NCBI RefSeq assembly: GCF_017303155.1
Contig: NZ_JAEKJR010000003.1
Coordinates: 263,630-327,629 of the forward strand
Reading direction: 5' to 3'
DNA length: 64,000 nt
DNA from: Microbulbifer salipaludis
Lineage (GTDB): Bacteria > Pseudomonadota > Gammaproteobacteria > Pseudomonadales > Cellvibrionaceae
Positions 13,295 through 29,252 of the stretch are shown here, piece after piece. Each line of letters opens with the position of its first letter. Within the stretch, counting starts at the first letter, position 1. Below the pieces are notes generated by a model that saw only the letters and a program-made list of their open reading frames with translations, was not told the origin of the DNA and made no database searches. Position numbers and translations under genes: made by a program.

Positions 13295-14605
13295 GTGACA
13301 CAGACAGATACCAGCAACGCAATTGCTATCGGCTTGATGTTTACAGCCTCAGCTCTGCTGTGTGGCTCTGTTACGGCGGAAGAAATCTCCGCCGTAGACT
13401 CGGCCCTCGACAACGCCAAGGCTCCTCCCGCAGCTTATATAGAAGCGGCATCCAAACCGCTGGAAAAACCGAAGCGTAAGCTTCGCCCCTCGAAAGCGGC
13501 CGAGGATTACCGCCGGCGCATTGAAGACATGGAAGCCGAGCACGGCGCATACGGTGCCGGTATCGACGAACAATTGATGGGCCTCGCCAGCGCGCTGCAG
13601 CGCAGCGGGAACCACGAAGAGGCAGTTGCCGAATTTCGCCGCGCCATGCTGATCAATCGGGTGAATGAAGGGCTCTACTCCCTCAACCAGGTACCGATGA
13701 TCGAACGAATGATCGAGAGCCATATCGCCCTCAATCAATGGGAAGAGGCCAACGACAACCACGAATATCTTTTCTGGTTGCATGCCAAAAATTATGGTGA
13801 GAAAGATCCGCGCATGCTGCCGATCATCAACCAGTTGAGTAACTGGCACCTGCAGGCCTATATCGATGAAAAAGGGGCGACGCTGTTTGAGCACTTGATC
13901 AACGCTACCAACCTCTACGCCCTGGCGGTCGATATTATTTCGCAAAACTATGGCGCCAATGACTTGCGTATGGTCGAGGCATTGCGTGGCCTCAAGGCGA
14001 CAAATTATTACCTAGCCACTTACACCGGTGAACCCCAGGAGGCCATTGTCATCAATGCGGGTTTTGCCGGTAGTGGCAACGGGACGCCAGAGCGTCGGGC
14101 GCAGCTCGACCACTATCGAATGAACAGCTTCAGCTCCGGCAAAACCGCGATCACCAAAATCATGGATGTGTATCAGAAGAACCCGTCTTCGCCACCGGCG
14201 GCATCGGCAAAGGCCAAAGTGGAGCTGGGTGACTGGTACATGATCTTCAACAAATGGCATTCCGCGCGCGAAACCTATGGCCAGGCCTATCAGGCGCTGT
14301 GGGATAACGGCGCTACCAATGAAGAAATCGACGAAATCTTCGGTCGTCCGGCGGCGCTACCCACTCTGCCGTTGCTGGACGAAGATCGTGAGGCACTGGC
14401 CAATTCCTATGTCACGGTTTCTTACGATGTGACGGCGTTCGGCAAGGCGCGCAATATCCAGATTTTAAGTGCCAGGCCGGAAGATAAAGTGAGCATCCGT
14501 TCGCGGGTACGCAATGTGCTCAAACGGGCCAAGTTCCGGCCCCGGTTTGAAAATGGTGAGCCAGTAGCCACTACCGGTATCGTGCAACGATTCGTATTCG
14601 ATTGA
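13295..14605 (+). CDS. Periplasmic TPR protein with TonB-type C-terminal domain
   Basis: This 436-residue protein has a cleavable signal peptide (hydrophobic AIAIGLMFTASALL, likely cut after VTA at residue 28). A helical TPR-like region spans about residues 70-330 (for example LMGLASALQRSGNHEEAVAEFRRAM). A TonB-C-like fold occupies about 355-436, with YVTVSYDVTAFGKARNIQIL and a final VVQRF-type strand. Canonical TonB has an N-terminal membrane anchor and a Pro-rich spacer; both are missing here, so this is a soluble or complex-bound relative. The GTG start is used because the signal peptide follows directly; no good ribosome site is visible. It is the first gene of a 12-gene co-directional block. 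A 190-bp gap with a hairpin separates it from the next gene. Specific function is unknown. Confidence 0.75.
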   Translation: MTQTDTSNAIAIGLMFTASALLCGSVTAEEISAVDSALDNAKAPPAAYIEAASKPLEKPKRKLRPSKAAEDYRRRIEDMEAEHGAYGAGIDEQLMGLASALQRSGNHEEAVAEFRRAMLINRVNEGLYSLNQVPMIERMIESHIALNQWEEANDNHEYLFWLHAKNYGEKDPRMLPIINQLSNWHLQAYIDEKGATLFEHLINATNLYALAVDIISQNYGANDLRMVEALRGLKATNYYLATYTGEPQEAIVINAGFAGSGNGTPERRAQLDHYRMNSFSSGKTAITKIMDVYQKNPSSPPAASAKAKVELGDWYMIFNKWHSARETYGQAYQALWDNGATNEEIDEIFGRPAALPTLPLLDEDREALANSYVTVSYDVTAFGKARNIQILSARPEDKVSIRSRVRNVLKRAKFRPRFENGEPVATTGIVQRFVFD

Positions 14606-14744
14606 AAAATTAAGGAAACAACACACTGTGTTCGACTGATGTAGCGAAGTAGGTTTGATTTCAGCATTGGGAAAAACTGGCAGCAAATCTTTTCTGCCAG
14701 GAAAACCCCGCTGAAGGAAAACTGTCGAACAGACAAGGAGCAAG

Positions 14745-14774
14745 ACGGGCCGCCGCGATTTCGCGGCGGCCCGT
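14745..14774 (+). promoter_or_regulatory. Perfect 14-bp GC hairpin just upstream of the Ser-rich lipoprotein gene
   Basis: The arms ACGGGCCGCCGCGA (14745-14758) and its exact complement (14761-14774) enclose only TT. The hairpin ends about 10 nt before the ribosome site of the gene at 14796 and has no U tract, so it is not a standard terminator. A role in mRNA processing, stability or partial transcription stop between the two genes is plausible. Confidence 0.6.
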
Positions 14775-14795
14775 GAACGCATCAGGAGATAGCTC

Positions 14796-16148
14796 ATGGC
14801 ATTACGGACGATCGCTCAGCGGTTTACACAAAAAACTGGCAAGACAAACAATGACGCCACTGGATGGCGCTGGCAATCGCTGGCGTCGGTGGTGGTATTG
14901 TCCGCGGTAATAAGCGGCTGCAAAAACCAGCAGACACAACAGCAACCGCCGGCGCAGCCTCAGCAGAAGTCACAGTCCAGTGCTTCACAGTCGCAATCGC
15001 AATCGCAGTCGCAGTCGTCCAGCTCGTCTTCGAGCAAGTCGCAATCGAGCCCGTCCACGGCCAGCAGCATGCCATCGCCCAGCTCACCGAGCAGCAGCCG
15101 CAGCCCGAGCATGTCGACCGCCAGCAGCCCCGCGCAGCCGAATACCTCCTTCCCCAGCATTGAGTCCGCGGACCGCTCGAGCGAACAATCCAGCACCGCC
15201 TCGGATACCGGCGAGGAATCCGATCGCCGCTCGCGCGAGCCCAGCAGCAGCGCGGAAGACCCCATGGCCAGCAGGAACCCATCGACGCCAGTGTACAGCG
15301 AGTCCGATGAGCGCCCGCAGGAAACCCGCATGCCGCCAGACCCCTCCTCCAACAGCGAGGGCGAGCCACCGGACGAAATCGATTTCTCCGAAGAACAGCA
15401 GACGGCGAGTAGCGCCTCGTCCAGCTCTTCCAGTGCCTCCAGTAACAGCGCGTCATCCAGCAGTGCCTCGTCCAGCAGCAGCGCCCCCGCCAGTGCATCC
15501 AGCAGTGGTGCCCCAAGTAGCGCATCCAGCAGTTCCCCTTCCGGCGCCCAGGGTGGCGGGCAAGCCAGCGCATCTGCCAGCGGACAAGCCGGCGATGGCG
15601 GCGCACCCGCCAGCGCTTCCAGTACCGGTAGTCCGGCCAGCGGTGGCAACCCGGCACCGAATGAGGCCCCGGCCAGCTCCGCGGAACGGGTAGCAGAGCT
15701 CGAAGGGCAGTTTGAATCCACGATGGCCAGCTACGACGGCATGATCCTGCGCGAGCGGGATTACGTGCGCAACCGCCCCGCCTCGGCGGAAGAACAGGAG
15801 GCGGCAGAGGACGAGGTGCCGCCCGGTGAGTCCCTGGAAGACCTGATTCAGTCTGCCGAGGCCGAACTGCCCGCCCCACCGCCTTCCGGCGGTGGCGAAG
15901 GTGGCAGCGGACCGGAGCAGAACAATTCCAGCGGACAGGCCACAGGACCGGGACTGCCCACCAAGGGCCGCACAGGTGAATACAACCACACCAACACCGC
16001 GGCGGTGGTACCCGCAGACATCCCCAGCGGTGACGATGACGATGTGGTCGCCCGCCAGATTCGCGAGGCCGCCATGCGCGAAGCCGATCCGGAATTGAAG
16101 GAACGACTCTGGGAAGAGTATCGGAAATATAAAAAATCACAGAAATGA
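14796..16148 (+). CDS. Ser-rich low-complexity lipoprotein
   Basis: This 450-residue predicted lipoprotein has an unusually long N-region before the membrane segment and lipobox (VISGC, Cys42). Residues 43-300 are a Ser/Gln, then Ser/Pro, then Ser/Ala/Gly-rich tract that should be unfolded and may act as a long periplasmic tether. The C-terminal 150 residues are more ordered and charged (around RVAELEGQFESTMASYDG), ending in a Lys/Glu-rich helix (DPELKERLWEEYRKYKK). AGGAG lies 8 nt before the ATG. No domain was recognised. Its place inside the envelope cluster, next to another lipoprotein, suggests a structural or tethering role (inference). Confidence 0.72.
   Translation: MALRTIAQRFTQKTGKTNNDATGWRWQSLASVVVLSAVISGCKNQQTQQQPPAQPQQKSQSSASQSQSQSQSQSSSSSSSKSQSSPSTASSMPSPSSPSSSRSPSMSTASSPAQPNTSFPSIESADRSSEQSSTASDTGEESDRRSREPSSSAEDPMASRNPSTPVYSESDERPQETRMPPDPSSNSEGEPPDEIDFSEEQQTASSASSSSSSASSNSASSSSASSSSSAPASASSSGAPSSASSSSPSGAQGGGQASASASGQAGDGGAPASASSTGSPASGGNPAPNEAPASSAERVAELEGQFESTMASYDGMILRERDYVRNRPASAEEQEAAEDEVPPGESLEDLIQSAEAELPAPPPSGGGEGGSGPEQNNSSGQATGPGLPTKGRTGEYNHTNTAAVVPADIPSGDDDDVVARQIREAAMREADPELKERLWEEYRKYKKSQK
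14988..15017 (+). repeat. Tandem 6-bp repeat (CARTCG)5 inside the Ser-rich gene
   Basis: Five copies of CAR-TCG encode (Gln-Ser)5. Because the unit is a multiple of three, copy-number change would lengthen or shorten the tether without a frameshift. Confidence 0.85.
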
Positions 16149-16178
16149 AGATGAACATTCATCAGGGAGAGTAGTGAC

Positions 16179-17375
16179 ATGTTTTTCTCGCACACACGCA
16201 CGACCCTGTGCACGCTGGTCATGAGCCTGCTGACATTGGTGGGCTGCACCACCACCGAGGTCCGCACCACCGCCTACACGCCGCTCACGGTTGAAGATGC
16301 GGCCATCGCCGAAAATCGCCTGCTGGATGTCGGCATTGTGCAATTCAATGCCGGGCTTGATCAGGAAGAGGAGCCAGAAGAAGACGAGCTGGTGTTCCCG
16401 GAATTGCGCCGCGCCGAATCCCGCTATATTGCCGTCACGCTTGCCGATGCGCTGCAGTCGAGTCAGGGCTGGGGCGCGGTGCGTGTTATTCCCAGCGAGC
16501 GCACCAATATCGATGTGACCGTCGCCGGTACCATCGTGAAATCCGACGGTGAAACCCTGACGGTAGACGTCACCGTGACGGATTCCCGCGGTCAGGTGTG
16601 GTTCACCAAACAATACACCGAGCACGCCTCCCACTATGCCTACGACCGCAAGCACCCGACCGAGGGTGACGCATTTCAGGGTATCTACAACCGTATATCC
16701 AACGACATGCTGACCTACCGCCAGCGCCTGTCGAGTGAATACATCGCCGAGCTGCGCACGATTTCTGAAATCAAATTTGCACAAAGCTTTTCGCCCGGTG
16801 CGTTCGATCGCTACCTGGTGCAGGACGACGAGGGTCTCTACCAGCTCACCGCATTACCGGCAGACAACGACCCGATGTTGATGCGTGTTCGGCGGGTCCG
16901 CGAGCGCGACTATCTGTTTGTCGATACGCTGCAAGGTTACTACGACACCTTTGTAAAAAGCATGGAGACGCCCTATCAGGAGTGGCGCGCCATGAGTTAT
17001 GAAGAGGTCAAGCAGATGCGTGAACTGAAACGCAAGGCGCGCAATAACACCATCATGGGCGTCGCCGCCATTGTGGGTGGTATTGCGGCAGCCGGTGCCG
17101 GTGGCGGCGCGGCGCGCCAGGCTGGCAACGTGGCCGTGGCCGGTGGTGGCTACCTGGTAAAAAGCGGGTTCGATCGCCGCTCCGAAGCCAAAATGCACAT
17201 CGAGGCACTGCAGGAACTCGGTGACTCGATGGAAGCCGAGGTAGAGCCGCGTATCGTTGAGCTGGAAGATCGCACCGTAACGCTGTCTGGCTCCGTGGAA
17301 AACCAGTACCGCCAGTGGCGCGAACTGCTCAAGGAAATTTACGAAGTGGAAACCGGGGGCATGAGCGATATTTAA
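16179..17375 (+). CDS. Envelope-cluster lipoprotein with hydrophobic Gly/Ala segment
   Basis: This is a 398-residue lipoprotein (LTLVGC, Cys23). The N-terminal half has an alpha/beta pattern resembling lipoproteins that assemble in the periplasm (strand-rich VGIVQFN..., VDVTVAGTIVKSDGETLTVDVTVTDS), distantly like CsgG/LpoB-type folds, though I cannot assign one firmly. A Gly/Ala-rich hydrophobic stretch lies at about residues 288-325 (IMGVAAIVGGIAAAGAGGGAA), long enough to enter or span a membrane. A helical C-terminus ends MSDI. GGGAGAG precedes the ATG. It follows the Ser-rich lipoprotein by 30 bp, so the two are co-transcribed. A lipoprotein with an internal glycine-zipper-like segment is a candidate outer-membrane component. 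Confidence 0.75.
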   Translation: MFFSHTRTTLCTLVMSLLTLVGCTTTEVRTTAYTPLTVEDAAIAENRLLDVGIVQFNAGLDQEEEPEEDELVFPELRRAESRYIAVTLADALQSSQGWGAVRVIPSERTNIDVTVAGTIVKSDGETLTVDVTVTDSRGQVWFTKQYTEHASHYAYDRKHPTEGDAFQGIYNRISNDMLTYRQRLSSEYIAELRTISEIKFAQSFSPGAFDRYLVQDDEGLYQLTALPADNDPMLMRVRRVRERDYLFVDTLQGYYDTFVKSMETPYQEWRAMSYEEVKQMRELKRKARNNTIMGVAAIVGGIAAAGAGGGAARQAGNVAVAGGGYLVKSGFDRRSEAKMHIEALQELGDSMEAEVEPRIVELEDRTVTLSGSVENQYRQWRELLKEIYEVETGGMSDI

Positions 17376-17479
17376 CGCGCGCACCATCCGGTTCCAGACT
17401 CGACCCTAGCTGACCGGCCGTGCGGCTCACGTAGCGGCGGCCGGCAACCGAAAATAACAGCAGACATAGCGGAAATACC

Positions 17480-19048
17480 ATGCAACACCGCGATCCATCA
17501 CCGGAAGACCAGTCCATCATCCAGCCTGCCGATTTTTCCTTCGGGGGCACCGCCACGGGCGACCAGCCGGCAGGCCCGGCGTCGGCTCATGCGGCAAACA
17601 AAAAGCCAGAAAGGAACCGCAAGCTGGCCCCGATCCTTATTGGCAGCAGCATGCTGGCCGCACTGGTTGGCGTATTCTGGGTACTTCCCCAGATGATTGA
17701 AAAGCCGGTCATTCCCGCCACTACCCCGGCCGCCAATACCAGTGCGCCAGTTAAAAACAGTGTGAAAAAAGTCCAGGAATCCCCCTTTACTGAGGCAGAA
17801 ATTGCAGCCCAACGCCGTGAGGTGCAGAAGATACTGCAGGAGATTCTGCAGCTGCAGGAAGAATTGCTGGAGCGAAAGGTGGAAACCTGGGCCGCCGAGG
17901 AATATTTCGCCGCGCGTACGCTCGCCGAAAGTGCCGATGGCATCTACCGCCAGCGCAAGTTCATGCAGGCGCTCGAACAATACCGCCAGGCGCTGGCAGG
18001 TATGCAGGCAGTGCGAGACAGCATTCCAGAACGAATCGAAAAACATCTGGCAGACGGTAACGGCGCACTGGATGCCGGCGATGCCGAAGCCGCCCAAAAA
18101 GCCTTCGATCTCGCCCTGACGATCTCCGAGGACCACCCGCGCGGTGTCGCGGGCAAAGCCCGCGCGGAACAATTGTCGGAAGTGTGGCCGCATGTGGTCG
18201 CCGGTAAAGAGGCCTTTGAAGAAAATGCCCTCGACATCGCGAAGCAGGCACTGGAAACCGCCCTGAACCTGGACCCGGACACGGCGCCCGCCAAAGCACT
18301 TCTGCCAGAGGTCAACGCAGCCATTCTCGAGCGGGATTACAGCGAGGCCATGTCCGCCGGCTATGCCGCTATCGCCACCGGAGAGTTCACCAAGGCCAGG
18401 ACCCACTTCGTCAAGGCACGCACATTGAAGCCAGACGCCAACGATCCGAACATCGGTATTACCCAGGCGGAAAACGGGCTCGCCCAGGCGCGCATCGACC
18501 GACTGTTTGCCACCGCCGCCGGGCACGAGCAGAGCGAACAGTGGCACAAGGCCGCGGAAAAATATGGAGCGTTGATTGCCGAAGACAGCAGCCTGGTGGA
18601 AGCACTCACCGGCAAGGCCCGCTCAGAAGCCCGTGCGAAGCTGGATGACCAGCTGCAGGAACTACTGAAAGATCCCCTCACACTCGGGCAGAGCAAACGC
18701 AATCAGTACGCGCGCAAGGTACTGGCCGATGCCCGCGCACTCAGGGCCAGTACTCCACGGCTCACAGGGCAGATTGAGCAGCTGGAATCGGCACTCACAA
18801 AGTCCCTGATCCCGATTACCGTGCTGCTGCAGTCGGATGCCAGCACCAACGTGACCATTTACCACGTAGGCAGGCTGGGGAATTTCTCAGAACGGGAAAT
18901 TGCACTGAAACCCGGGCGCTATACCGTGGTGGGCACACGCCAAGGCTATCGGGATGTGCGCCGCGAACTGATCGTGGATCCATCCTCGGAATCTCCCGTA
19001 GTGACCATCGAGTGCGAAGAAAAAATTAACAGCGCCAATAAATCCTGA
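17480..19048 (+). CDS. Bitopic TPR protein with PEGA-like C-terminus
   Basis: This 522-residue protein has a cytoplasmic tail (1-48), one transmembrane helix (about 49-70) and a periplasmic domain. The tail carries ED-x-S-I-IQP-x-x-F at residues 9-19, a motif shared with the protein at 19497. The periplasmic part begins with a coiled-coil-like stretch (100-135) and continues as TPR-like helical hairpins to about 430 (YRQRKFMQALEQYRQALAGM, ADGNGALDAGDAEAAQKAFDLAL). It ends with a PEGA-like beta domain (ALKPGRYTVVGTRQGYRDVRREL). The shared tail and fold imply the two proteins work in the same complex. No enzymatic motif was found. Confidence 0.78.
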   Translation: MQHRDPSPEDQSIIQPADFSFGGTATGDQPAGPASAHAANKKPERNRKLAPILIGSSMLAALVGVFWVLPQMIEKPVIPATTPAANTSAPVKNSVKKVQESPFTEAEIAAQRREVQKILQEILQLQEELLERKVETWAAEEYFAARTLAESADGIYRQRKFMQALEQYRQALAGMQAVRDSIPERIEKHLADGNGALDAGDAEAAQKAFDLALTISEDHPRGVAGKARAEQLSEVWPHVVAGKEAFEENALDIAKQALETALNLDPDTAPAKALLPEVNAAILERDYSEAMSAGYAAIATGEFTKARTHFVKARTLKPDANDPNIGITQAENGLAQARIDRLFATAAGHEQSEQWHKAAEKYGALIAEDSSLVEALTGKARSEARAKLDDQLQELLKDPLTLGQSKRNQYARKVLADARALRASTPRLTGQIEQLESALTKSLIPITVLLQSDASTNVTIYHVGRLGNFSEREIALKPGRYTVVGTRQGYRDVRRELIVDPSSESPVVTIECEEKINSANKS

Positions 19049-19496
19049 TCGGTGAAACCCTTTGCCCGCGGGCAGATCAAAAACTGCGCGACGTCAAACG
19101 TCATCCGAATTTTACGTAGCCGTTTTTGACACAGCTTTGACCGCCTATATGGCCAGGCTGCCCGCGGGTCACGCCAGCACATTCTGACTGCCCGCCCACC
19201 TTCCGCAACCGAAATTCGCCCCCACACACTGGCTCCGAGCCGGTGACGGGCAATGGACGAAATTGTCGTCCTGGTATCGGTAAAACGGAAAAAGCTACGC
19301 CAAAAACACCCCCGCTCCGGCTGCAAGCGCGAGAGCGGGCTAAGCTGAAATGCGCGGCTCTGTCTCTGGCAGCAAGCCCCGGGTCGGACAGGTAACGCAT
19401 GCGACAAGAATGTGACAAGCATGTAACAACACCGCCCGGCAGCAGAGATTCCAGCTACGTAAAAATCAATAAGTACGCAGTAACAGGACATCAAAA
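19049..19496. other. Gap inside the envelope cluster
   Basis: These 448 bp between two co-directional cluster genes hold no supported open frame. The length suggests an internal promoter for the 19497 gene and those after it. I could not identify convincing -35/-10 boxes. The last 100 bp are more AT-rich and lead to AGGA, 9 nt before the ATG. Confidence 0.5.
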
Positions 19497-21587
19497 ATGA
19501 CAGCCAAGGAAGCGGTACCCGTTCGCGACAGCGAGCCGGCAAGCGAAGATGCATCCGTCATTCAACCCATCGGATTCACCCCCGCCCCGGTTGCCACCGG
19601 TGGCAGAAAACTGCTACTTACCCCGAAGGCGATTGTGGTCGCCAGCTGCCTGCTACTGGGCGCCCTGATGCTGGCCTACCTGCTGGTCGCCCGCTCACTC
19701 ATTTTTGAAACACAGCCGGCCGATGCCGACGTATCGGTCAGTGGTCTCGCCCTCCCCCTGGGCGATGGCCATCTGGTTTTACCCGGTCACTACAACTACA
19801 CCATCAGCGCCACCGGCTACCTCCCGCGCACTGGCGAGGTCGAAGTGAGCAGCGACAGTAACAGTCGCCACGCGGTGAAGCTGGAACGCTTGCCCGGCCA
19901 CCTGCAGGTGGTAACCGACCCTCCGGTGCCCGTGCGCGTTTTGGTGAACGGTGCGGAAGTGAGCAGCACGGAAGGCCTGGCCTCGTCCATTCCCGCCGGC
20001 CGCAAGCGCATCACCATTCTCACGGAGCGTTACCTGCCCTTCAGCAAAGAAGTTGAGATCGAAGGACTGGACAACACGCAAACGCTCACCGCAACACTGC
20101 GCCCGGCGTGGGCCAACGTTTACATTACCAGCAACCCGGCGGGCGCAACCGTCAGTGTGGAAGGCCGGGTTCTCGGCACCACTCCGCTGACCGCCGAGCT
20201 GGTACAGGGAGATCGACTGGTGGATATCTCCCTGCCGGATCACAAGACCGCGCAAATCCAGGTGCCCGTCACCGCCGGCGTCGACCAGACCCTTGCCACG
20301 GTGGACCTCAACGCTGCCGACGGCACTCTCCGCGTGGTAACCAATCCCCCCGGTGCGAGCATCACCGTCAACGGCGAGTACCGCGGACAGGCCCCCATCG
20401 ACCTGGCACTGGCCTCCAACAGCCGACACGAGTTGCGCTTTTTCCTCGATGGATACAGCACTGTCGAACGCACCGTCGATGTCCGCGCCGGAGATCTGCG
20501 GGATATGAACGTGGAGCTCACTGCTGTATTCGGCAAAGTTTCCATCACCAGTAACCCGGCAGACGCGCAGGTGTTTATCGACGGCAAACTGGCGGGTGTG
20601 GCCGGCCAGACCTTCACCCTGCCCACCCGCAGCCACAACATTACCGTGCGTAAACCCGGGTATGAGGACTACTCCACCACCATCGTACCTTCCAGCAAAC
20701 TGAAGCAGTCGGTAAGGGCCGTGCTGCTCACCGGAGAGCAGGCACGCTGGAGTGGCATACCCGCTGAAATCACCCACGGTGCCGGCGGCAAAATGTTGCT
20801 GATGCGACCCAATGCACAGTTCACCATGGGCTCCTCCCGCCGCGAGCAGGGCCGCCGCGCCAATGAAGTCATGCGCAAGATTGCGCTCACCCGGCCGTTC
20901 TATATCGGCGCAACCGAAGTCACCAACCGCGAGTACCGCCGCTTCCAACGGATGCACAATTCCAGCCATGCCAATGGGGTGAGCCTGGATAACGATAACC
21001 TGCCGGTGGTGAATATCAGCTGGAATGATGCCGCCCTGTTTTGTAACTGGCTGAGTGCACGGGACGGGCTCAAAGAGGTGTACCGCAGCGAACGCGGACG
21101 CGTGGTGGGCTTTGACGCGAGCGCCAATGGCTACCGTATGCCGACCGAAGCGGAGTGGGCCTGGGCTGCGCGCTTCGAGCGCGGTGCCATGCGCAAGTTC
21201 CCCTGGGGCAATGCGTTGCCAGTGGGCAAAAATTCGGGAAATTACGCCGACAGCAGTGCCGGGCAGATAGTCCCAGCCGTGCTTCGCACCTACAACGACC
21301 GCTACCCGGCTACCGCCCCGGTGGGCAGCTTCACCCCCAACCACACCGGCCTGTTCGATATGGGCGGCAATGTCTCTGAGTGGATTCACGACCTTTACAC
21401 CATTGGCACCGGCCTGTCCCTCAAGCGGGAAGAAAACCCGGTGGGCCCACAGGAAGGTGACTATCACGTGGTACGGGGCTCCAGCTGGAAGCACGCCGGA
21501 CTGACAGAATTGCGCTTGTCGTACCGGGACTATGGTGCCGAGGCACGCAACGATATCGGGTTCCGCGTAGCCCGATGGGTGAACTGA
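19497..21587 (+). CDS. Bitopic protein with five PEGA repeats and an FGE-sulfatase-fold domain
   Basis: This 696-residue protein has a cytoplasmic tail with ED-x-S-V-IQP-x-x-F at residues 17-27 and one membrane helix at about 44-65. Five PEGA-like beta repeats lie between 68 and 420 (markers SNPAGATVSVEG, NPPGASITVNGEYRG, SNPADAQVFIDGK). A SUMF1/FGE-type domain spans 433-695 (MGSSRRE, FYIGATEVTNREYRRF, YRMPTEAEWAWAAR, GNVSEWIHD, VVRGSSW, DIGFRVAR). The C-terminal segment lacks the cysteines that formylglycine-generating enzymes use for catalysis (RGSSWKHAG), so a binding or structural role is more likely than FGE activity. GldK of the type IX secretion system is a known FGE-fold component of a machine driven by proton-motive force. 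Identity of the domains is firm; the role is unknown. Confidence 0.85.
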   Translation: MTAKEAVPVRDSEPASEDASVIQPIGFTPAPVATGGRKLLLTPKAIVVASCLLLGALMLAYLLVARSLIFETQPADADVSVSGLALPLGDGHLVLPGHYNYTISATGYLPRTGEVEVSSDSNSRHAVKLERLPGHLQVVTDPPVPVRVLVNGAEVSSTEGLASSIPAGRKRITILTERYLPFSKEVEIEGLDNTQTLTATLRPAWANVYITSNPAGATVSVEGRVLGTTPLTAELVQGDRLVDISLPDHKTAQIQVPVTAGVDQTLATVDLNAADGTLRVVTNPPGASITVNGEYRGQAPIDLALASNSRHELRFFLDGYSTVERTVDVRAGDLRDMNVELTAVFGKVSITSNPADAQVFIDGKLAGVAGQTFTLPTRSHNITVRKPGYEDYSTTIVPSSKLKQSVRAVLLTGEQARWSGIPAEITHGAGGKMLLMRPNAQFTMGSSRREQGRRANEVMRKIALTRPFYIGATEVTNREYRRFQRMHNSSHANGVSLDNDNLPVVNISWNDAALFCNWLSARDGLKEVYRSERGRVVGFDASANGYRMPTEAEWAWAARFERGAMRKFPWGNALPVGKNSGNYADSSAGQIVPAVLRTYNDRYPATAPVGSFTPNHTGLFDMGGNVSEWIHDLYTIGTGLSLKREENPVGPQEGDYHVVRGSSWKHAGLTELRLSYRDYGAEARNDIGFRVARWVN

Positions 21588-21633
21588 AGTCACAGCCTGC
21601 GTGGAATCACGCAATTACCAACGAGGCACGGCG

Positions 21634-21942
21634 ATGCAACCGACACAGTGTTTTACCCGCTCCCGCTATCAGGCATTGGCTTTCGCGCTACTGACCGCAC
21701 TTGCCGGTTCGGTAGCCGCTCAGGTCGCCGGTGACTCGGCTAGCGAAGCCAGTGATAGCGGCACCAATCAGGCGGAAGCGAGCGCGCAACCGGTCAGCGT
21801 CAAGACGACAGAACCAGCGCCCAAACCCGTCGTTAAAAAAACACCAACGATCAAGGCACAGAGCGCAGAGAGTGCCGATGGCTATGAAGCCTCGGAAGAA
21901 ATTTCGGAGGACCTCTCGGTCTCCTACCCAGTGGATATCTAA
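21634..21942 (+). CDS. Small secreted cluster protein
   Basis: This 102-residue protein has a signal peptide (hydrophobic ALAFALLTALAGSVAA, likely cut before QVAGD). A short acidic, Ala/Ser/Lys/Pro-rich mature part has no recognisable fold and ends YPVDI. The ATG at 21634 follows GAGG with 7-nt spacing; an upstream in-frame GTG at 21601 is not needed. It lies between the FGE-fold gene and the channel gene, spaced 46 and 89 bp. Size and composition suggest an unfolded periplasmic linker or a peptide that must be processed. Function unknown. Confidence 0.65.
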   Translation: MQPTQCFTRSRYQALAFALLTALAGSVAAQVAGDSASEASDSGTNQAEASAQPVSVKTTEPAPKPVVKKTPTIKAQSAESADGYEASEEISEDLSVSYPVDI

Positions 21943-22031
21943 ACCCAAGATCGCGTATTCAACAGGCACAGTCAGAGCAATACCCGGGCCCATCGCCAAT
22001 GGAATGGCCCTACAAAAAAGCGGGAAAACCC

Positions 22032-22826
22032 ATGAAATTCAAGTCTTCAGATTTCGTCTTCCAGCTGTTTGCCCTACTCGGGGCGATCATTCTGGTACAT
22101 GCCATCTACGTGGCCATTATCCGTCCCAACGCCGATGCCTTGATCGCCGAACAAATGGCACGAGAGGAAGCCGGCGAAACCTACATACAGCAGCGATCGA
22201 TCTACATCGTAATGCGCGACTACGAACAGGAAGCCTGCTTCGTACTCATGCTGTGGGCGATGGCCATCATGGGACTGAAAGCGCGGCGCGGCTTTCGCGA
22301 GCGCAAGCTGCTGGACCAGGCGCTATTAAATGTAAGCGAGGGAACACCCATTCTGCCGGAAGACGCCCGCGACCTGTCGCGACCGATACAGGCGTTACCG
22401 GAGGAAGAGCGTAATTTCCTGTTACCCCGCGCGCTGCTCACGGCATTGCAGCGCTTCGGTTCCACACGCAATGTGGCCGCTGTATCCAATTCGGTCAAAG
22501 AGGTCTGTGATACCGAAGGCGACCGGCTGGACTCGGAACTGGCGATGGTGCGCTACATCACCTGGGCGATCCCCTCCATCGGGTTTATCGGCACCGTGCG
22601 CGGTATTGGTGAAGCACTAGCCCAGGCCCACCGCGCGGTGGAAGGCGACATCGCCGGGGTAACCGTAAGCCTGGGTGTGGCTTTCAACTCCACGTTTATC
22701 GCGCTTGTCATCAGTATCGTCATCATGTTCTTCACCCACCAGCTGCAGCTTATGCAGGAGCGCCTGGTACTGGATACCCAGAATTATTGTGACAACAAAC
22801 TGCTGCGTTTCTTGAAGGTGGGCTGA
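22032..22826 (+). CDS. MotA/TolQ/ExbB-family channel protein
   Basis: This 264-residue membrane protein has four predicted helices at about 8-29, 67-83, 174-196 and 208-234. A large cytoplasmic loop separates helices 2 and 3, the layout of the MotA/TolQ/ExbB superfamily. The signature segment IPSIGFIGTVRGIGEAL and the last helix with GVTVSLGVAFNSTFIALVIS match the family core; T221 sits where ExbB/TolQ carry a pore-facing Thr. Known members form pentameric pores that use ion-motive force with a partner of the ExbD/TolR/MotB type. No classical partner is adjacent, but the two vWA genes downstream have an ExbD-like membrane helix. The ATG at 22032 gives a clean N-terminus; an in-frame ATG at 21999 is possible. 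Confidence 0.85.
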   Translation: MKFKSSDFVFQLFALLGAIILVHAIYVAIIRPNADALIAEQMAREEAGETYIQQRSIYIVMRDYEQEACFVLMLWAMAIMGLKARRGFRERKLLDQALLNVSEGTPILPEDARDLSRPIQALPEEERNFLLPRALLTALQRFGSTRNVAAVSNSVKEVCDTEGDRLDSELAMVRYITWAIPSIGFIGTVRGIGEALAQAHRAVEGDIAGVTVSLGVAFNSTFIALVISIVIMFFTHQLQLMQERLVLDTQNYCDNKLLRFLKVG

Positions 22827-22934
22827 CACAGAACGGCCTTGGTTCAGGCGTTCAAGCGCCCGGATCACGATTCACTGCATAACGCCGGCTGACCAGGGAC
22901 ATGGCCAGCCGCTACAGGGAAAACAGGAGCTTCC

Positions 22935-24239
22935 ATGAGCAAAGGTGTACTGGATATCAACGACTGCGGTCTGCGGGTTTTTGTCGGCAACAATGAAGTG
23001 CTGGAGAGTCCGGGGGTTGCCATCGTCAATGACCGGGAAATTGTCACAGGCACCGCCGCCTTGATGCGTGCGCGCAGCCACCCCACGCAGGTCAACCACC
23101 AGTTCTGGCGTCGTCTCAGCCTGGAATCGGTCAAATCCGATAACCCGGGCTGCCGCCATCACGCGGACCTGGCGTTCTGCCACCTCCAGCATATCGCCGA
23201 ACTATGTGATCTGCCCGACGAGGTCGCCCTCGCAGTGCCCGGCAACTTCACCCGCGAACAGCTGGCCCTGCTGCTGGGTGTCATCAAAGAGAGCCCGTTC
23301 AACGCCATCTCTCTGGTGGATGCCGCAGCCGCATGCATCAGCAGCTGCGCTCCGCGGGGGGTACACCTGCATATCGAACTGCACCGCCACCAGACTCTGG
23401 TGAGCCGTGTGGTGGTGCACGAACAGGCAGAGCTGGATATCGCGGAAACCGTAACCGATGCAGGGCTGCAACATTTCCAGGAAGCCTGGGCCCGCATGTT
23501 TACCGATGCGTTCATCATGCAGTGCCGGTTTGACCCGCTGCACTCGGCAGAATCCGAGCAACAGCTGTACGACATGCTGCCTCAGTGGATCGCCCGCGCG
23601 ATGCGCCAGGGCGAAGTCATGGCAGAACTCGATGATCGCACCGCCAAAGTCAGCCTGCGGCAACTGCAGGACGCGAGCACGCCAATTCTCTCCCGGGTGC
23701 GCGCCATGATCGAGAACCTCGGCGAAGCCAACAGCGTTGTGTTTGTGTCGCACCGCTGGGCCGAGATCCCCGGAGGGGCGCAACTGGCCGAGCGTATACA
23801 TCTGCTGCCGCATAACGCGGTGGCACAGGCGGCGGAAAAGCACTGGCAGGAAATTCACAGCGAAAGTGAACAGCTGCGGCTCGTCAATGCACTGAGTGCA
23901 GCTCCAGCCACCGAGGTGGCCGTACAGGTCAATGCTGCGGCGGAAGCTGGCGCAACACATCTGCTCTTCGGCCATCGGGCGTTGGCCGCGCAGCAACCGC
24001 TGTTTGTCAGCTGGCAGGAGGGCAAACTCAACATCACCCCCACGCCACCCACTCACCCGGCCGCCACCATCACCAATCACGCCGGTCGCCTGGCACTGCG
24101 CGTGGATGCCGGTGCACAGCTGATGCTGAACGGGCAAGAAATTTCTGCACCGGTGAATCTCACCGCGGGCGATCGCATCGGCGCGGCCAATCTTGAAGAC
24201 GTAATTACTGCGATCAGCGTGGAACATTATGGCGCGTAA
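22935..24239 (+). CDS. Actin/Hsp70-fold protein with FHA-like C-terminus
   Basis: This is a 434-residue cytoplasmic protein (no signal or membrane helix). It opens with an ASKHA-type phosphate-loop strand (GVLDINDCGLRVF) followed by SPGVAIVN and a QVNHQFWRRLSLE segment, like a group of predicted Hsp70-related proteins. A second sheet includes LPDEVALAVPGNFTREQLALLLG and NAISLVDAAAACISS. The adenosine motif could not be assigned with certainty (candidate VVFVSHRWAEIPG). Residues 375-434 look like an FHA-type beta sandwich (LMLNGQEISAPVNLTAGDRIG). AGGAG lies 6 nt before the ATG, and the 3' end overlaps the next gene by 11 bp. An ATPase or phospho-recognition adaptor acting at the cytoplasmic face of the channel complex is plausible. 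Confidence 0.75.
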   Translation: MSKGVLDINDCGLRVFVGNNEVLESPGVAIVNDREIVTGTAALMRARSHPTQVNHQFWRRLSLESVKSDNPGCRHHADLAFCHLQHIAELCDLPDEVALAVPGNFTREQLALLLGVIKESPFNAISLVDAAAACISSCAPRGVHLHIELHRHQTLVSRVVVHEQAELDIAETVTDAGLQHFQEAWARMFTDAFIMQCRFDPLHSAESEQQLYDMLPQWIARAMRQGEVMAELDDRTAKVSLRQLQDASTPILSRVRAMIENLGEANSVVFVSHRWAEIPGGAQLAERIHLLPHNAVAQAAEKHWQEIHSESEQLRLVNALSAAPATEVAVQVNAAAEAGATHLLFGHRALAAQQPLFVSWQEGKLNITPTPPTHPAATITNHAGRLALRVDAGAQLMLNGQEISAPVNLTAGDRIGAANLEDVITAISVEHYGA

Positions 24240-25311
24240 AAACCGGCGGTTCTCAGCCTTCAGCCTGTCGTTTCTGGACATCATGTCCTGCGGATTTGGT
24301 GCCGTCGCACTGATCTTCCTGATCATCAAGCACGGCTCCGATCACGACATCGAAGCGGAAAATCAGGATCTGGCTGCGGAGGTCAACCTGCTGCAGGAGG
24401 AAGTTCAGTTCGGTCAGGAACACCTGGTCCTGGCCCGCAACACCCTGGACACCACCAGCGATGAGTTGGCCACGGCGCAAGGTCTGGCGCGACGCATCAT
24501 GGAGCAGATCGAGGAGGTCAAGGGCAACATTGCCGAGGTCGACAGCACTACCGACGAAATGGACATTGCGCGCCTGCAACAGAAGCTCAAGAAACTGGAG
24601 CAGGCCAAGAAGCAGCTGGAAGCGGAAAACAAGAAGCTGGGTAACAACGTGCGGAAATTTGTCGGCGATGGCGACCGGCAGTACCTAACCGGCCTGCGCC
24701 TGGGCGGTGATCGTATCCTCATTCTGCTGGACTCCTCCGCCAGTATGCTCGGCGATGAGCTGATCAAGGTGATCCGCACGCGCAATATGTCCGACGCGGT
24801 AAAGCGGGACACCGAAAAGTGGCGCCGCGCCAAACAGACCGTTTCCTGGCTGGTGTCGCAATTCCCACAGGATAGCCAGTACCAGATTTACACCTTCAAT
24901 ACTGAGTTCCGCGCCGCCCTGGTCGGCACCGAGGACCGCTGGCTGAATGTGGACGACCGCGACCAGATGGACGATGCCATGAAAGCGCTCGACAAGGTTG
25001 TGCCCGAGAACGGCACCAGCCTGGAGCGGATTTTCAACGCGGTGAACAGTATGTCACCACTGCCTGACAACATCATCCTGATTACCGATGGGCTGCCCAC
25101 GCAGGGCATGAAGGCACCCCGGGGCAATACGATTTCCGGCAAGGCTCGCCTTAAGCTGTTTCGCAACGCGGTCAAGGCCCTGCCCAAGAGCATTCCCGTC
25201 AATGTGGTCCTGGCCCCCATGGAAGGCGACCCCTTCGCCGCCAGTGAATACTGGAAACTGGCCATGGAAACCCAGGGTTCATTCCTAGCACCTTCCAAGG
25301 ACTGGCCATGA
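24229..25311 (+). CDS. Membrane-anchored vWA protein A with ExbD-like helix
   Basis: This 360-residue protein has a short basic tail and one membrane helix (about 15-33) that starts with SFLD (Asp17) and contains CGFGA. A coiled coil spans about 40-145 and a von Willebrand A domain 160-350. The metal-ion-dependent adhesion site is intact: D168-S-S-A-S172, with a later TDGLP. The N-terminal segment is nearly repeated in the following gene. The topology (cytoplasmic tail, Asp-bearing helix, periplasmic domain) equals that of ExbD, TolR and MotB. The start lies inside the end of the 22935 gene and the stop overlaps the next start, so all three are co-translated. A CGFGA-SFLD helix working with the 22032 channel is inference. 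Confidence 0.83.
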   Translation: MARKNRRFSAFSLSFLDIMSCGFGAVALIFLIIKHGSDHDIEAENQDLAAEVNLLQEEVQFGQEHLVLARNTLDTTSDELATAQGLARRIMEQIEEVKGNIAEVDSTTDEMDIARLQQKLKKLEQAKKQLEAENKKLGNNVRKFVGDGDRQYLTGLRLGGDRILILLDSSASMLGDELIKVIRTRNMSDAVKRDTEKWRRAKQTVSWLVSQFPQDSQYQIYTFNTEFRAALVGTEDRWLNVDDRDQMDDAMKALDKVVPENGTSLERIFNAVNSMSPLPDNIILITDGLPTQGMKAPRGNTISGKARLKLFRNAVKALPKSIPVNVVLAPMEGDPFAASEYWKLAMETQGSFLAPSKDWP

Positions 25312-26309
25312 GTAGACGCAGTAAACGGCAACAAGAAGAGTTCAGCATCTCGTTCCTCGACGTCATCTGCTGTGGATTTGGCGCCATCGTATTACTGTTG
25401 ATGATCGCTAAAACAGTGGAACCCATTGTGCTGGAGGAAGCCGAGCTGGATCTGGATGGCCAGGTTCAGGAGTTGCAGGAGCAGCTGGCGGAAATCCGCG
25501 GCGAAACTTCGGTGCTGAACCGCGACCTGAACGCCAAAAAGGAACAGCTGGATATCGAGACCAAGCGCATCGCAATACTAAAAGGCGAACTGGAAACCTT
25601 GCAGGCTCAGTATGCGCGCAAGACCGAGAGTGAAAGCGAGGAAGGTAAACTCAAGGGCGAGCTGACGATCGCCCTGCAGAGCATGACCGATGAAATGAAA
25701 CGACTGCTCGGGGAGAACTACCAGCGCAAAAACAATGTCATTGGCGGCATCCCGGTGGACAGCGAATACATCCTGTTCATCATCGACACCTCGGGCAGTA
25801 TGTTTAATTACGGTTGGGATCGCATGATCCAGGAGATGGTCAACACCCTGAACCTGTACCCCAACGTAAAAGGCATCCAGGTGATGAACGATATGGGTGA
25901 CTACATGTTTTCCAACTATCGCAATCGCTGGATTCCCGATACACCGGGGCGTCGTGATGCGGTACTGTCCCGACTCCGCTCATGGAATCCGTTCAGTAAC
26001 TCAAGTCCCGTGGAAGGAATCCAGAAGGCAGTACGCACCTTTTACGATCCAAACAAAAAAATCAGTATTTACGTACTCGGCGATGAATTCACTGGAAAAT
26101 CCATCCGCAACGTCATGATGGCGGTGGATCGCGTGAACGCGCAACGCGGGGAGGACCAGCGCATGGTCCGGATACACGCGATCGGCTTCCCCATCCAGTT
26201 CTCTCGCCCACTACACCTGCAGACTACAGGGCTGCGCTTCGCCGCCCTGATGCGTGAACTGACCTACCGCAATGGCGGAACCTTTGTGGGCCTGAACGAC
26301 TTTCGCTGA
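25308..26309 (+). CDS. Membrane-anchored vWA protein B with ExbD-like helix
   Basis: This is a 333-residue paralogue-like partner of the preceding protein. It has a basic tail, then a membrane helix with SFLD (Asp18) and CCGFGA at about 16-34. A Glu/Gln/Leu-rich coiled coil spans about 42-135 and a vWA domain 150-330. A complete MIDAS D160-T-S-G-S164 and a later GDEFTG are visible, so metal-dependent ligand binding is likely. ATGA overlap with the upstream gene and AAGGA 8 nt before the ATG show coupled translation. Two unequal vWA subunits suggest a heteromeric assembly. Confidence 0.83.
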   Translation: MSRRSKRQQEEFSISFLDVICCGFGAIVLLLMIAKTVEPIVLEEAELDLDGQVQELQEQLAEIRGETSVLNRDLNAKKEQLDIETKRIAILKGELETLQAQYARKTESESEEGKLKGELTIALQSMTDEMKRLLGENYQRKNNVIGGIPVDSEYILFIIDTSGSMFNYGWDRMIQEMVNTLNLYPNVKGIQVMNDMGDYMFSNYRNRWIPDTPGRRDAVLSRLRSWNPFSNSSPVEGIQKAVRTFYDPNKKISIYVLGDEFTGKSIRNVMMAVDRVNAQRGEDQRMVRIHAIGFPIQFSRPLHLQTTGLRFAALMRELTYRNGGTFVGLNDFR

Positions 26310-26357
26310 TGGAAAACTAGAGACGACGTTGGGTTGGCAGAAACCCGGGAGCAAACC

Positions 26358-27014
26358 ATGAATCGCTTGTTAAATGGAATTGGCGCGATCCGATATTTCA
26401 CACTGGTGGCGCTGGCTGGCCTGCTGGCCGCCTGTGCCCATACGGTGTCGGTGGATGGCGAGTTCCCCGCACCCGTGGGCGATCCCCATCCTCTCACCGT
26501 TGGCGTTTACCTGAGTGACGACTTCCGGCAGTTCACCTACAGCGAGAACCGGGACGACCGCGATGAATGGAACATCGATACCGGCCGCGCGCAGAAGAAC
26601 CTGTTTGAAACGGTACTCGGTTCCATGTTCCAGGAAACCATTAACCTCGCGCAATACCCGTCTGACCTCCCACAGGGACTGGACCTGGTGATTGTCCCCG
26701 AGGTGCGCGAGCTGCAATTCACCATGCCCCGGGAGACCCGGGTCAACATTTTCGAAGTGTGGATCAAGTACGACATGCATGCCTATAACCAACAGGGTGA
26801 GTCGGTGGCCGAATGGGTCATCACTGCGTACGGGAAAACGCCTACCGCCTTTCTGAAATCCCAGGAAGCCGCGCTGGCCCAGGCCATCAACGTGGCATTG
26901 CGTGATGCCGGCGCCACCCTGTATACCGGTTTTGAACGCGTACCCGAGTTACAGGCACTGATTGCCAACAAGCAGCGCGCCCTGAGCATGAAGCAGACGG
27001 GTAGCGACAAATAG
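26358..27014 (+). CDS. Cluster lipoprotein (unknown fold)
   Basis: This 218-residue predicted lipoprotein (GLLAAC, Cys26) starts at an ATG at 26358 behind GGGAG; an upstream TTG at 26334 is rejected. The mature part has alternating strands and helices (PLTVGVYLSDDFRQFTY, LDLVIVPEVRELQF, NIFEVWIKYDMHAYNQ), resembling small periplasmic alpha/beta lipoproteins such as LPS-transport or efflux accessory types. I cannot assign a family. It follows the vWA genes by 48 bp and is probably in the same transcript. Confidence 0.7.
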   Translation: MNRLLNGIGAIRYFTLVALAGLLAACAHTVSVDGEFPAPVGDPHPLTVGVYLSDDFRQFTYSENRDDRDEWNIDTGRAQKNLFETVLGSMFQETINLAQYPSDLPQGLDLVIVPEVRELQFTMPRETRVNIFEVWIKYDMHAYNQQGESVAEWVITAYGKTPTAFLKSQEAALAQAINVALRDAGATLYTGFERVPELQALIANKQRALSMKQTGSDK

Positions 27015-27081
27015 TTTCCAGCGGATTCTGGAAACTCCATCCGTGTACCCGGTACGCGGAAATCTCAAGGAGGATGTACTG

Positions 27082-27756
27082 GTGAAATTCCTGAGCGCAC
27101 TTTTTTCAATTTCGGTACTGACGCTGTTTTCCAGCGGGTGTACCACCGTGGTGATCGATGAATACCGGCGCAGCAGCGGAGAGCTCGCCGTTGGCGACTC
27201 TGTGGTGATTCTCGGGCGGCGTCATTCCAGCGACTACGAAACCGAGCCGGACCTGATCGACTGCGTGGGAAAAACCCTGCACAACCCGAGCGCGGGGGTG
27301 AACGTCATCCCCGAGCGGCAATTTGTGGATGCACTGTACCCCTGGTTTGAGCCGCGCACTGCACCCATGCACATCAAGTCACTGGATAAACTGATGGACA
27401 TTCCCGATGTGCGTGACCGTATGGCGGAATATGGAGTGAAGTATATCGTCTGGATTGACGGCTCTACTGAGACCACCTCCAGCGCCGGCTCCATCGGCTG
27501 CTCTATTGGCACCGCCGGTGCCGGCTGCTTCGGCTTCGGCACCTGGGACAAGGAATCCGATTACGAGGCTGCGGTGTGGGACTTCCGCGACCAGGAGCTG
27601 TCCGGGAAGATCAGCGCCGATGCCCAGGGTACCTCGTATATGCCCGCTATTGTTGTGCCTATCCCGCTAATTGCACGGGTACAGAACAACGCCTGCAAAG
27701 GCATGGCGGCACAACTGCAGGAGTTTTTGTTACCGCCTCAATCCGCCAGCCGCTAG
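27082..27756 (+). CDS. Cluster lipoprotein (unknown), GTG start
   Basis: This 224-residue predicted lipoprotein has lipobox FSSGC with Cys20 when read from the GTG at 27082. That start has an optimal AAGGAGG 8 nt upstream, which decides it against an in-frame GTG at 27043. The mature protein contains a Ser/Gly/Cys-rich central segment (GSIGCSIGTAGAGCFGFG, about residues 148-166) and a C-terminal helix. The Cys content is high for a periplasmic lipoprotein, and disulfides are likely. No family was recognised. It stands 67 bp after the previous lipoprotein gene. Confidence 0.7.
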   Translation: MKFLSALFSISVLTLFSSGCTTVVIDEYRRSSGELAVGDSVVILGRRHSSDYETEPDLIDCVGKTLHNPSAGVNVIPERQFVDALYPWFEPRTAPMHIKSLDKLMDIPDVRDRMAEYGVKYIVWIDGSTETTSSAGSIGCSIGTAGAGCFGFGTWDKESDYEAAVWDFRDQELSGKISADAQGTSYMPAIVVPIPLIARVQNNACKGMAAQLQEFLLPPQSASR

Positions 27757-27800
27757 CGCGGCGGCGATGCTCACTGGAACAATAACGACAGGAGATAGCG

Positions 27801-29252
27801 ATGCACACGCTCAATAAACTGTTGGCCACCATCTTGTTGACCACGGCCGCCGGCTGCGCCTTCAATCCGGCAACGAATCGTCCGGACCTTGTGCTGATGT
27901 CGGAGGAAAAAGAAATCAAAATTGGTCGCGAAATGCATGAAAAATTGGTCGCGAGCACCCCAATTTACAACGACCCTATCCTGACCGCCTATGTGAGACA
28001 CGTGGGTGAGAAGATCGCCAAAGCCAGTGACCGGCCCGATCTCACCTATCATTTCACCATTATCGACAGTCAGGACATCAACGCGTTTGCCCTGCCCGGC
28101 GGTTACGTTTATATCAACCGCGGTTTGCTCACCTACCTGCAGTCGGAAGCGGAAATGGCCGCGGTACTGGCTCATGAAGTGGGTCACATTACCGCCCGCC
28201 ATGCCGTCCGCCAGAAAACGGCAGCCACGGGTGCGGGGGTCGCCTCGGTACTCTCTGTGCTGGTAACCGGCAGCGGTGTGGTGGGCGACGTCGCCAACTT
28301 GTGGAGCACTGCTGCGGTAAAAGGCTATGGCCGCGAAATGGAACTGGAGGCCGACCGCTTCGGCGCACAGTACATGTACAACGCGGGGTACGACCCCCAA
28401 TCCATGATCAATGTAATTGCGCTGCTGAAGGATCAGGAGACCTTTGCCCGCCGCCGCGCGCGGGTCGAGGGCAAGAAGCAGCAAACCTATCACGGGGTCT
28501 TTTCGTCACACCCGCGCAACGATGTGCGACTGCGCGAGGTAGTGGCCGCAGCCGGTGAACTGCCGGAAGACAAGAAGGTAACCAAAGTCGAGTACTACAG
28601 GGAGAAAACCGAGGGCATTGTGTACGGGCAGAATGCCCAGGAAAGCGACAAAAACCGCTTTAACCACAAGAGCCTCGGGTTTTCGTTGCTGTTCCCGGAC
28701 GGATGGGAAGTAGAGAACCAGCGTACCGCCATTGTGGGTAAGGCGCCGGACAATTCCGCCACACTGACGATACGGGTCGCCAAGCGTGACGGGAATCAGC
28801 CGGCAGATATGGCGCTGCGCGGCGTGTACGACGTCCGCAGCCTGGAAGAGGACGAGGCACTCAGCCAATACCGCCTGGAGGGGCATACCGGCAAGTTACC
28901 CGTGAGTGGTGAAGACGTGCCAAACCGGGTCGCGGTGCTGTTTTACGGCAGCCGCCAGTACATTCTCGAAGGCCGGGTGACTGAACAACCTTCAGACACC
29001 GACGCAGAGACCGAGTACGACAACCTGTTCTTGACCAGTATCCGCAGCTTTCGCCCATTGCGTAAAACGGACATGGTGCAGCCGGACATTAAGCGGGTGA
29101 AATATGTGCAAGCCAATGAGAAAACCACCTTCTCATCCCTGGCGCGCCATATGGAGATTGGCGAGTACGCCGAAGAGCAATTACGCCTGCTGAATGGCTA
29201 CTATCCGCGCGGCGAACCCAAGCCCGGTGAGTGGATCAAGATAGTGCAATAG
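27801..29252 (+). CDS. M48-family metalloprotease lipoprotein
   Basis: This is a 483-residue lipoprotein (TAAGC, Cys19). The zinc site is HEVGH (H125, E126, H129), followed by ARH and the third-ligand region EMELEADRFGAQYM. The M48C type (BepA/LoiP-like) handles outer-membrane protein quality control in the periplasm. The C-terminal 60 residues are LysM-like in pattern (RVKYVQANEKTTFSSLARH, LRLLNGYYPRGEPKPGEWIKIV), pointing to peptidoglycan contact. AGGAG lies 8 nt before the ATG. It is the last gene of the plus-strand block and ends 10 bp from the convergent GGDEF gene. It may service the cluster products, or be an unrelated housekeeping gene. Confidence 0.88.
   Translation: MHTLNKLLATILLTTAAGCAFNPATNRPDLVLMSEEKEIKIGREMHEKLVASTPIYNDPILTAYVRHVGEKIAKASDRPDLTYHFTIIDSQDINAFALPGGYVYINRGLLTYLQSEAEMAAVLAHEVGHITARHAVRQKTAATGAGVASVLSVLVTGSGVVGDVANLWSTAAVKGYGREMELEADRFGAQYMYNAGYDPQSMINVIALLKDQETFARRRARVEGKKQQTYHGVFSSHPRNDVRLREVVAAAGELPEDKKVTKVEYYREKTEGIVYGQNAQESDKNRFNHKSLGFSLLFPDGWEVENQRTAIVGKAPDNSATLTIRVAKRDGNQPADMALRGVYDVRSLEEDEALSQYRLEGHTGKLPVSGEDVPNRVAVLFYGSRQYILEGRVTEQPSDTDAETEYDNLFLTSIRSFRPLRKTDMVQPDIKRVKYVQANEKTTFSSLARHMEIGEYAEEQLRLLNGYYPRGEPKPGEWIKIVQ

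Follow-up and report, generated by a model that had tools for sequence, protein, structure and literature searches.

Gene content and conservation of the block

A stretch of 64,000 nucleotides from Microbulbifer salipaludis (hereafter the window) contains a block of 13 genes, all on the + strand and spanning 13295-29252, in which a MotA/TolQ/ExbB-like channel subunit (g7) is accompanied by two different proteins that each carry a membrane helix and a vWA domain (g9, or vWA1, and g10, or vWA2). The first-pass annotation had described a co-directional block with an unusual combination of genes, and both the gene content and the co-occurrence of its members in other genomes confirm that description; it counted twelve genes, but its own list holds 13, the same as the block given here. 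The intergenic gaps from g1 to g13 are, in order, 190, 30, 104, 448, 46, 89, 108, -11, -4, 48, 67 and 44 bases. The genes are listed below, each with its count in 20 well-flanked non-Microbulbifer loci, i.e., loci extending 9 kb or more before the vWA1 start and 6.5 kb or more after it.

g1, 13295..14605, + strand: secreted TPR protein with a weak TonB-C-like end; accessory; 13/20 loci
g2, 14796..16148, + strand: Ser-rich low-complexity lipoprotein, lipobox ISGC; 19/20 loci
g3, 16179..17375, + strand: lipoprotein without a Pfam match, lipobox LVGC; 19/20 loci
g4, 17480..19048, + strand: bitopic TPR protein with a PEGA-like C-terminal domain; 19/20 loci
g5, 19497..21587, + strand: bitopic protein with PEGA repeats and a formylglycine-generating enzyme (FGE)-like domain without Cys in residues 655-690; 20/20 loci
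g6, 21634..21942, + strand: small protein with a signal-like hydrophobic segment; 17/20 loci
g7, 22032..22826, + strand: MotA/TolQ/ExbB-like channel subunit, Thr188 and Thr221 invariant; 19/20 loci
g8, 22935..24239, + strand: Hsp70 nucleotide-binding-domain fold with degenerate motifs and an FHA-like end, without a membrane segment; 17/20 loci
g9 (vWA1), 24229..25311, + strand: membrane helix at the N terminus containing SFLD (Asp17), followed by a long helix and a vWA domain with a metal-ion-dependent adhesion site (MIDAS); 20/20 loci
g10 (vWA2), 25308..26309, + strand: membrane helix at the N terminus containing SFLD (Asp18), followed by a coiled-coil-like stretch and a vWA domain with a MIDAS; 20/20 loci
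g11, 26358..27014, + strand: lipoprotein (lipobox); accessory; 16/20 loci
g12, 27082..27756, + strand: lipoprotein (lipobox); accessory; 15/20 loci
g13, 27801..29252, + strand: M48 metalloprotease lipoprotein (lipobox); accessory; 14/20 loci

Pfam matches over the cut-off were obtained for g7 (MotA_ExbB), g9 (vWA), g5 (PEGA and FGE), g4 (TPR) and g13 (M48). The vWA match of g10 was weak, and g1 gave TPR and TonB_C just below the cut-off, its TonB C-terminal domain scoring 21.7 bits against 24.6. No Pfam match was returned for g2, g3, g6, g8, g11 or g12.

A search with vWA1 retrieved 61 loci, and at 58 of these the block is present, either whole or clipped by the ends of the locus and with some members absent. 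The three Verrucomicrobial loci (L075-L077) were dropped from the relatives because vWA1 alone matches there; they have no relative of g7, g10, g8 or g5 and no SFLD/SALD pattern. Microbulbifer accounts for 26 of the 58 true vWA1 relatives, the closest being 96% identical. The order of the block is retained in most of the 58; g7 is displaced or elsewhere in L059 and L066-L072, and g8 is absent from L047, L049 and L050. Present in 17 of the 20 well-flanked loci and not found in several others, g8 is less constant than g7 and the vWA pair, and in L137 and L138, which belong to a family outside the class, the order reads g2-g3-g4-g5-g7-g9-g10 without it. Based on this g8-less order together with the locus counts, we take the seven genes g2, g3, g4, g5, g7, g9 and g10 as the core.

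Co-occurrence of the channel and the vWA pair

We surveyed 369 genomes drawn evenly from the class with the g7 and vWA2 profiles, counting matches as strong at E 1e-70 or better for g7 and at E 1e-80 or better for vWA2. The g7 profile matched 40 genomes at E 1e-12, of which 31, from 17 families, were strong. The vWA2 profile matched 42 genomes at E 0.001, and its 28 strong matches all fall within the 31 strong-g7 genomes. In each of the remaining three strong-g7 genomes (G107, G118 and G310), a vWA-type match adjoins g7 close to the end of a contig, that of G118 being 4112 bases long. In 26 of the 28 genomes with both, g7 and vWA2 lie on one contig about 5 kb or less apart; they are on different contigs in G233 and in G332, where the two contigs are only 4.4 and 8.5 kb long. 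In G018 and G019 (L071 and L072), g7 is absent from the block locus and a strong g7 is found elsewhere in the genome. Where g8 is absent, g7 directly adjoins g9 (e.g., L081, L085 and L118-L128).

A phylum sample of 299 genomes was searched with vWA2, and g7 was read only at the resulting loci. Strong vWA2 matches occurred in 13 genomes, all of one family outside the class; g7, g9 and g10 are clustered in 11 of the 13 loci, and the other two show only g10. The distribution covers numerous families of Gammaproteobacteria-type genomes and a single family from a different class. Co-occurrence of the channel, the Hsp70-like gene and both vWA families had been proposed as the first check on the block; it holds for g7 and the vWA pair, and less constantly for the Hsp70-like gene.

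The channel protein g7

Both family searches and profile comparison place g7 among known channel proteins. It matches PF01618 at 51.6 bits (cut-off 22.9), and hhalign comparison with ExbB/TolQ relatives of the same genome (8 open reading frames at 6 loci) gave a probability of 94.55% with E 1.5e-08. In that alignment Thr188 and Thr221 of g7 fall onto the TolQ/ExbB threonines, and both are invariant across 26 aligned g7 sequences. The motifs GTVRG and FN[SA]T were each present in 120/120 g7 homologues among the matches listed. Judged by its sequence, g7 is a MotA/TolQ/ExbB-type channel subunit that carries the channel threonines of 5:2 ion-driven motors.

Three other channel-like proteins came up in these searches. 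The top-scoring g7 homologue, P0121 (396 amino acids), has an internal duplication of the channel region and lies on a 2.2-kb contig, so that it is perhaps an assembly artefact. Elsewhere in the window's genome (G000:C2:99220-99423; L016 1390-2766) is a 458-amino-acid MotA/ExbB-like protein with a long tail. At L114 2-2513, a weakly g7-like channel protein of 629 amino acids adjoins a 188-amino-acid protein whose N-terminal hydrophobic segment contains an Asp; the smaller protein had no Pfam match, and the two are possibly another unusual motor pair.

The vWA proteins g9 and g10

The two vWA proteins each begin with a short basic stretch followed by a single hydrophobic helix containing SFLD. 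Asp17 of vWA1 is Asp in 60/60 aligned sequences and Asp18 of vWA2 in 57/57, and SFLD lies within the first 40 residues in 120/120 vWA2 homologues among the matches listed. As in the partners of 5:2 ion-driven motors, an invariant Asp stands at the helix start of a bitopic protein, and we infer that g9 and g10 would fill the partner role. In both proteins the DxSxS of the MIDAS and its later Asp are kept in every aligned row with a letter at that position, and the MIDAS Thr222 of vWA1 is kept in 59/60.

The distance between the membrane and the head also varies little. From the membrane Asp of vWA2 to its MIDAS Asp the spacing is 142 residues in 120/120 homologues among the matches listed, and it is again 142 in 41 of the 55 loci where it was measured, which range from 135 to 147. 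The corresponding spacing in vWA1 is 139-157 with a median of 151 (57 measured of 59 loci). The predicted structure of vWA1 combines a confident vWA head with low-confidence helices at 15-103 and 110-143; about 100 of the helical residues would lie outside the membrane and, as a straight rod, span about 15 nm. A structure search with g9 returned generic vWA folds, the BatB entry 3ibs (E 1.7e-06) being one among many.

Accessory proteins

g5 matches the FGE family PF03781 at 159.1 bits, but there is no Cys in residues 655-690 in 57/57 aligned sequences, a region near the C terminus that we take to be the place of the FGE active-site cysteines; only Cys516 is conserved in the domain. g5 is referred to below as a pseudo-FGE. 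Its best NCBIfam match is GldK, at 126.3 bits against a cut-off of 350, and the NCBIfam scan of the block gave no GldL or GldM match.

The predicted structure of g8 has the fold of an Hsp70 nucleotide-binding domain. The glycine-rich motifs that we take to be those of Hsp70 ATP binding are not preserved in its alignment, and g8 has no HSP70 Pfam match. PilM/GspL-type actin folds were absent for g8 among the matches listed, which excludes nothing. From their signal and lipobox patterns, the non-motor proteins would together span to the outer membrane, as the first-pass annotation had supposed.

A probable ion-driven motor with a vWA axle

The well-studied motors of this kind have ExbD/TolR/MotB-type axles. 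Here, we consider it probable (roughly 0.7) that g7 and the vWA pair make up an ion-driven envelope motor, comparable to ExbBD, TolQR and MotAB, whose axle is formed by vWA proteins. g7 would form an inner-membrane ion channel, presumably pentameric, and the two Asp-bearing axle helices would be supplied not by ExbD but by the vWA proteins, probably one vWA1 and one vWA2 per channel. The axle would be turned or tilted by ion flow, and two rods of near-constant length would pass the movement to the metal-binding vWA heads in the periplasm. These heads may in turn act on an assembly of g5, g4 and the lipoproteins g2 and g3 that would have its anchor in the outer membrane. The cytoplasmic g8, in the loci that have it, could regulate the motor by sensing phosphorylation or nucleotide state. 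With a vWA axle and metal-binding heads, force would enter the envelope by a different route, and the conserved accessory set offers concrete partners for identifying what the motor drives.

As to what that might be, our leading guess is a surface or outer-membrane complex, driven in the manner of GldKLM. We make this guess because an FGE-type protein lies beside the motor and GldK is the best NCBIfam match of g5. In the GldKLM system, GldL and GldM form an ion-driven motor whose periplasmic partner is large, and they too stand beside an FGE-domain protein, GldK. Nevertheless, g5 is far below the GldK cut-off and is bitopic with PEGA repeats, and neither GldL nor GldM has a counterpart in the scan described above.

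Several observations weigh against the vWA proteins as the axle. The membrane helix and rod of vWA1 were modelled at low confidence (10-residue means of 36-73). The Pfam families ExbD and MotB do not match g9 or g10, and when the vWA membrane helices were compared with ExbD by hhalign, the probabilities were 0.05-0.08%, no better than those of the g4 and g5 controls; the comparison used 4 of the 8 ExbD proteins of the window's genome, picked by motif pattern. Because this score is at control level, we claim no homology of the vWA helices to ExbD, and on these comparisons g9 and g10 do not appear to belong to the ExbD/TolR/MotB sequence family. Finally, an ExbD gene without a channel gene of its own lies in the window itself, outside the block:

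unpaired ExbD, 33596-34024, - strand: 4.3 kb downstream of the block, with no channel gene beside it; adjoins a gene that we take to be methylglyoxal-synthase-like

The other ExbD genes of the window's genome each adjoin a channel gene. Some Microbulbifer loci likewise have this ExbD gene on the downstream side of the block. Tallying by eye, we scored an ExbD as unpaired when none of the listed PF01618 matches on the same contig was within 5 kb of it, and found one in 12 of 20 block-carrier genomes (G001-G005, G007-G010, G013, G014 and G020); several carriers are draft genomes, and the weakest matches were unlisted for part of the set, which could only lower the 12. A further set of ten genomes contained one carrier, G494, which has an unpaired ExbD, and nine genomes without vWA2, of which one (G557) has one and eight have none. 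The difference between 12/20 carriers and 1/9 block-less relatives gives a Fisher p of 0.02, not corrected for kinship.

Alternatives

These counts bear on the strongest alternative, that g7 pairs with an ExbD encoded elsewhere, such as 33596-34024, and that the vWA proteins bind the motor from outside as TonB/TolA-like force transducers. The excess of unpaired ExbD among carriers keeps it in play, and the main text of PMC12204202 describes another vWA family, a side-binding one, beside tolQR. However, eight of the 20 carriers (G006, G011, G012 and G015-G019) lack an unpaired ExbD, so the gene is not needed for the block even though carriers have it more often. The association may reflect shared ancestry, as the carriers that have one are mostly near the window's lineage. 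In none of the 20 carrier genomes does an ExbD lie within 5 kb of g7; the nearest is about 12.5 kb away (G002). The vWA helices themselves also fit this alternative poorly: their invariant Asp would be superfluous in a side-binding helix, and SHLS, a motif of TonB/TolA-type helices, occurs in 0/60 vWA1 and 0/57 vWA2 aligned rows. The first-pass annotation had named pairing of the channel with an ExbD elsewhere among the outcomes that would undo its proposal; the carriers without such a gene favour the vWA proteins and the excess in carriers speaks the other way. Overall, its interpretation is partly supported. On balance we judge pairing with an ExbD encoded elsewhere unlikely.

Less likely still is that the vWA pair forms a Bat-like assembly or adhesion complex, with the channel a passive or signalling neighbour. 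The likeness of the g9 head to BatB and the conserved MIDAS of both vWA proteins would suit such a complex. No MoxR-type ATPase appeared among the block-gene matches (the wider neighbourhood was not scanned for MoxR), the class survey turned up no case of g7 separated from the vWA pair, and the invariant Asp in the membrane helices would be left unexplained. A Zorya-like defence motor is very improbable: PADLOC gave weak ZorA matches for g7 (E 0.011) and for the coiled-coil part of g10 (E 0.031) but no ZorB or other Zorya match in the eight proteins scanned, and 26 Microbulbifer loci keep the gene order except at the locus ends, for which reason we take the block to be unlike a mobile defence island. 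The PADLOC defence matches overall were weak and, ZorA aside, mostly to coiled-coil regions, and were set aside.

Relation to published systems

The proposed vWA axle of g9 and g10 has a close published counterpart. The main text of PMC12204202 (Mol Biol Evol 2025) describes a membrane-tethered vWA family, mostly in unlike pairs, that co-occurs tightly with tolQ homologues and without tolR/exbD. AF3 models in that paper place the vWA Asp inside the threonine ring of the TolQ-like channel; the placement rests on prediction, and the paper, which treats two vWA families, states that deletion phenotypes had not been reported for the first one. The block resembles this TPH-vWA/TolQ-like family in having an unlike pair of Asp-helix vWA proteins beside a TolQ-like gene, in Proteobacteria and with the same proposed mechanism, and like that family it has no neighbouring tolR/exbD and no SHLS motif; the likeness, drawn to the Idiomarina TPH-vWA family, is one of description. 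It differs in its accessory genes, as the terms Hsp70, PEGA and formylglycine have 0 occurrences each in the main text of PMC12204202.

The claim of the first-pass annotation that the vWA proteins are the Asp-bearing partner of the channel is therefore the best-supported reading but not a new one. Likewise, its description of the system as undescribed does not stand for the core of vWA pair and TolQ-like channel, which PMC12204202 in its main text already contains, and stands for the accessory set (Hsp70-fold/FHA, PEGA/pseudo-FGE and TPR/PEGA proteins and lipoproteins), which we did not find described in the open-licence literature without bioRxiv. Because the core is already predicted there, our finding is a well-supported extension of a published prediction and not a new class.

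Further comparisons can be drawn with characterized motors. With ExbBD-TonB and TolQR-TolA, the block shares the channel family, the two threonines and a bitopic partner with an Asp near the start of a single helix; in contrast, its putative partner is not of the ExbD family by Pfam or hhalign and carries a vWA head on a long rod. The AglRQS motor of Myxococcus likewise combines a single channel with two different Asp-bearing partners (PMC9389320). However, AglQ and AglS have TolR-like peptidoglycan-binding domains, and vWA is not mentioned in the text of PMC9389320 considered here.

A second type of locus and a possible link to phosphorylation

A g7-like channel that matches more weakly (E 3e-23 to 1e-29) lies in a different setting in five genomes of the class survey (G052, G055, G110, G234 and G290).

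second-type loci: L108 6122-10750; L109 8078-17952; also L110, L111, L112 and L113

Pfam identified an FHA protein in all five genomes (L108, L109, L110, L112 and L113), PP2C in three (L108, L109 and L110/L111), trypsin-FHA proteins in four (L108, L109, L111 and L113) and a kinase in two (L109, with PEGA, and L111). A vWA-type protein with the Asp-bearing sequence SALDLFAS in its membrane helix is present at L108, L109 and L111; the Pfam vWA call was positive for L108, just below the cut-off for L109 and negative for L111. In G052 the channel and the vWA-type gene are on separate contigs. Absences in L110, L112 and L113 say little because the contigs are short. DLFA[ST] was present in 116/120 homologues of the L108 protein among the matches listed (1201 were found), the first pattern tried having matched 80/120. 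We did not find this kinase/PP2C/FHA-linked type described in the literature searched.

At L071 1458-5720, the g4 relative has a protein kinase fused to its N terminus, the whole protein being 1421 amino acids long. This fusion, together with the FHA ends, suggests phosphorylation control of the motor, and the kinase and FHA links suggest that it is switched. A broader and decidedly tentative proposal, which we regard as possible but would not bet on, is a superfamily of vWA-axle motors gated from the cytoplasm by protein phosphorylation. In the first type, a degenerate Hsp70/FHA protein would read kinase signals, and in the second, a single DLFAS-vWA axle would work with FHA, PP2C, trypsin-FHA and kinase proteins; both would drive outer-envelope complexes that the described motors do not serve.

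Directly downstream of the block and convergent with it lies a 7TMR-DISM/GGDEF diguanylate cyclase gene (29263-31194, - strand), and the same neighbour is found in some Microbulbifer loci.

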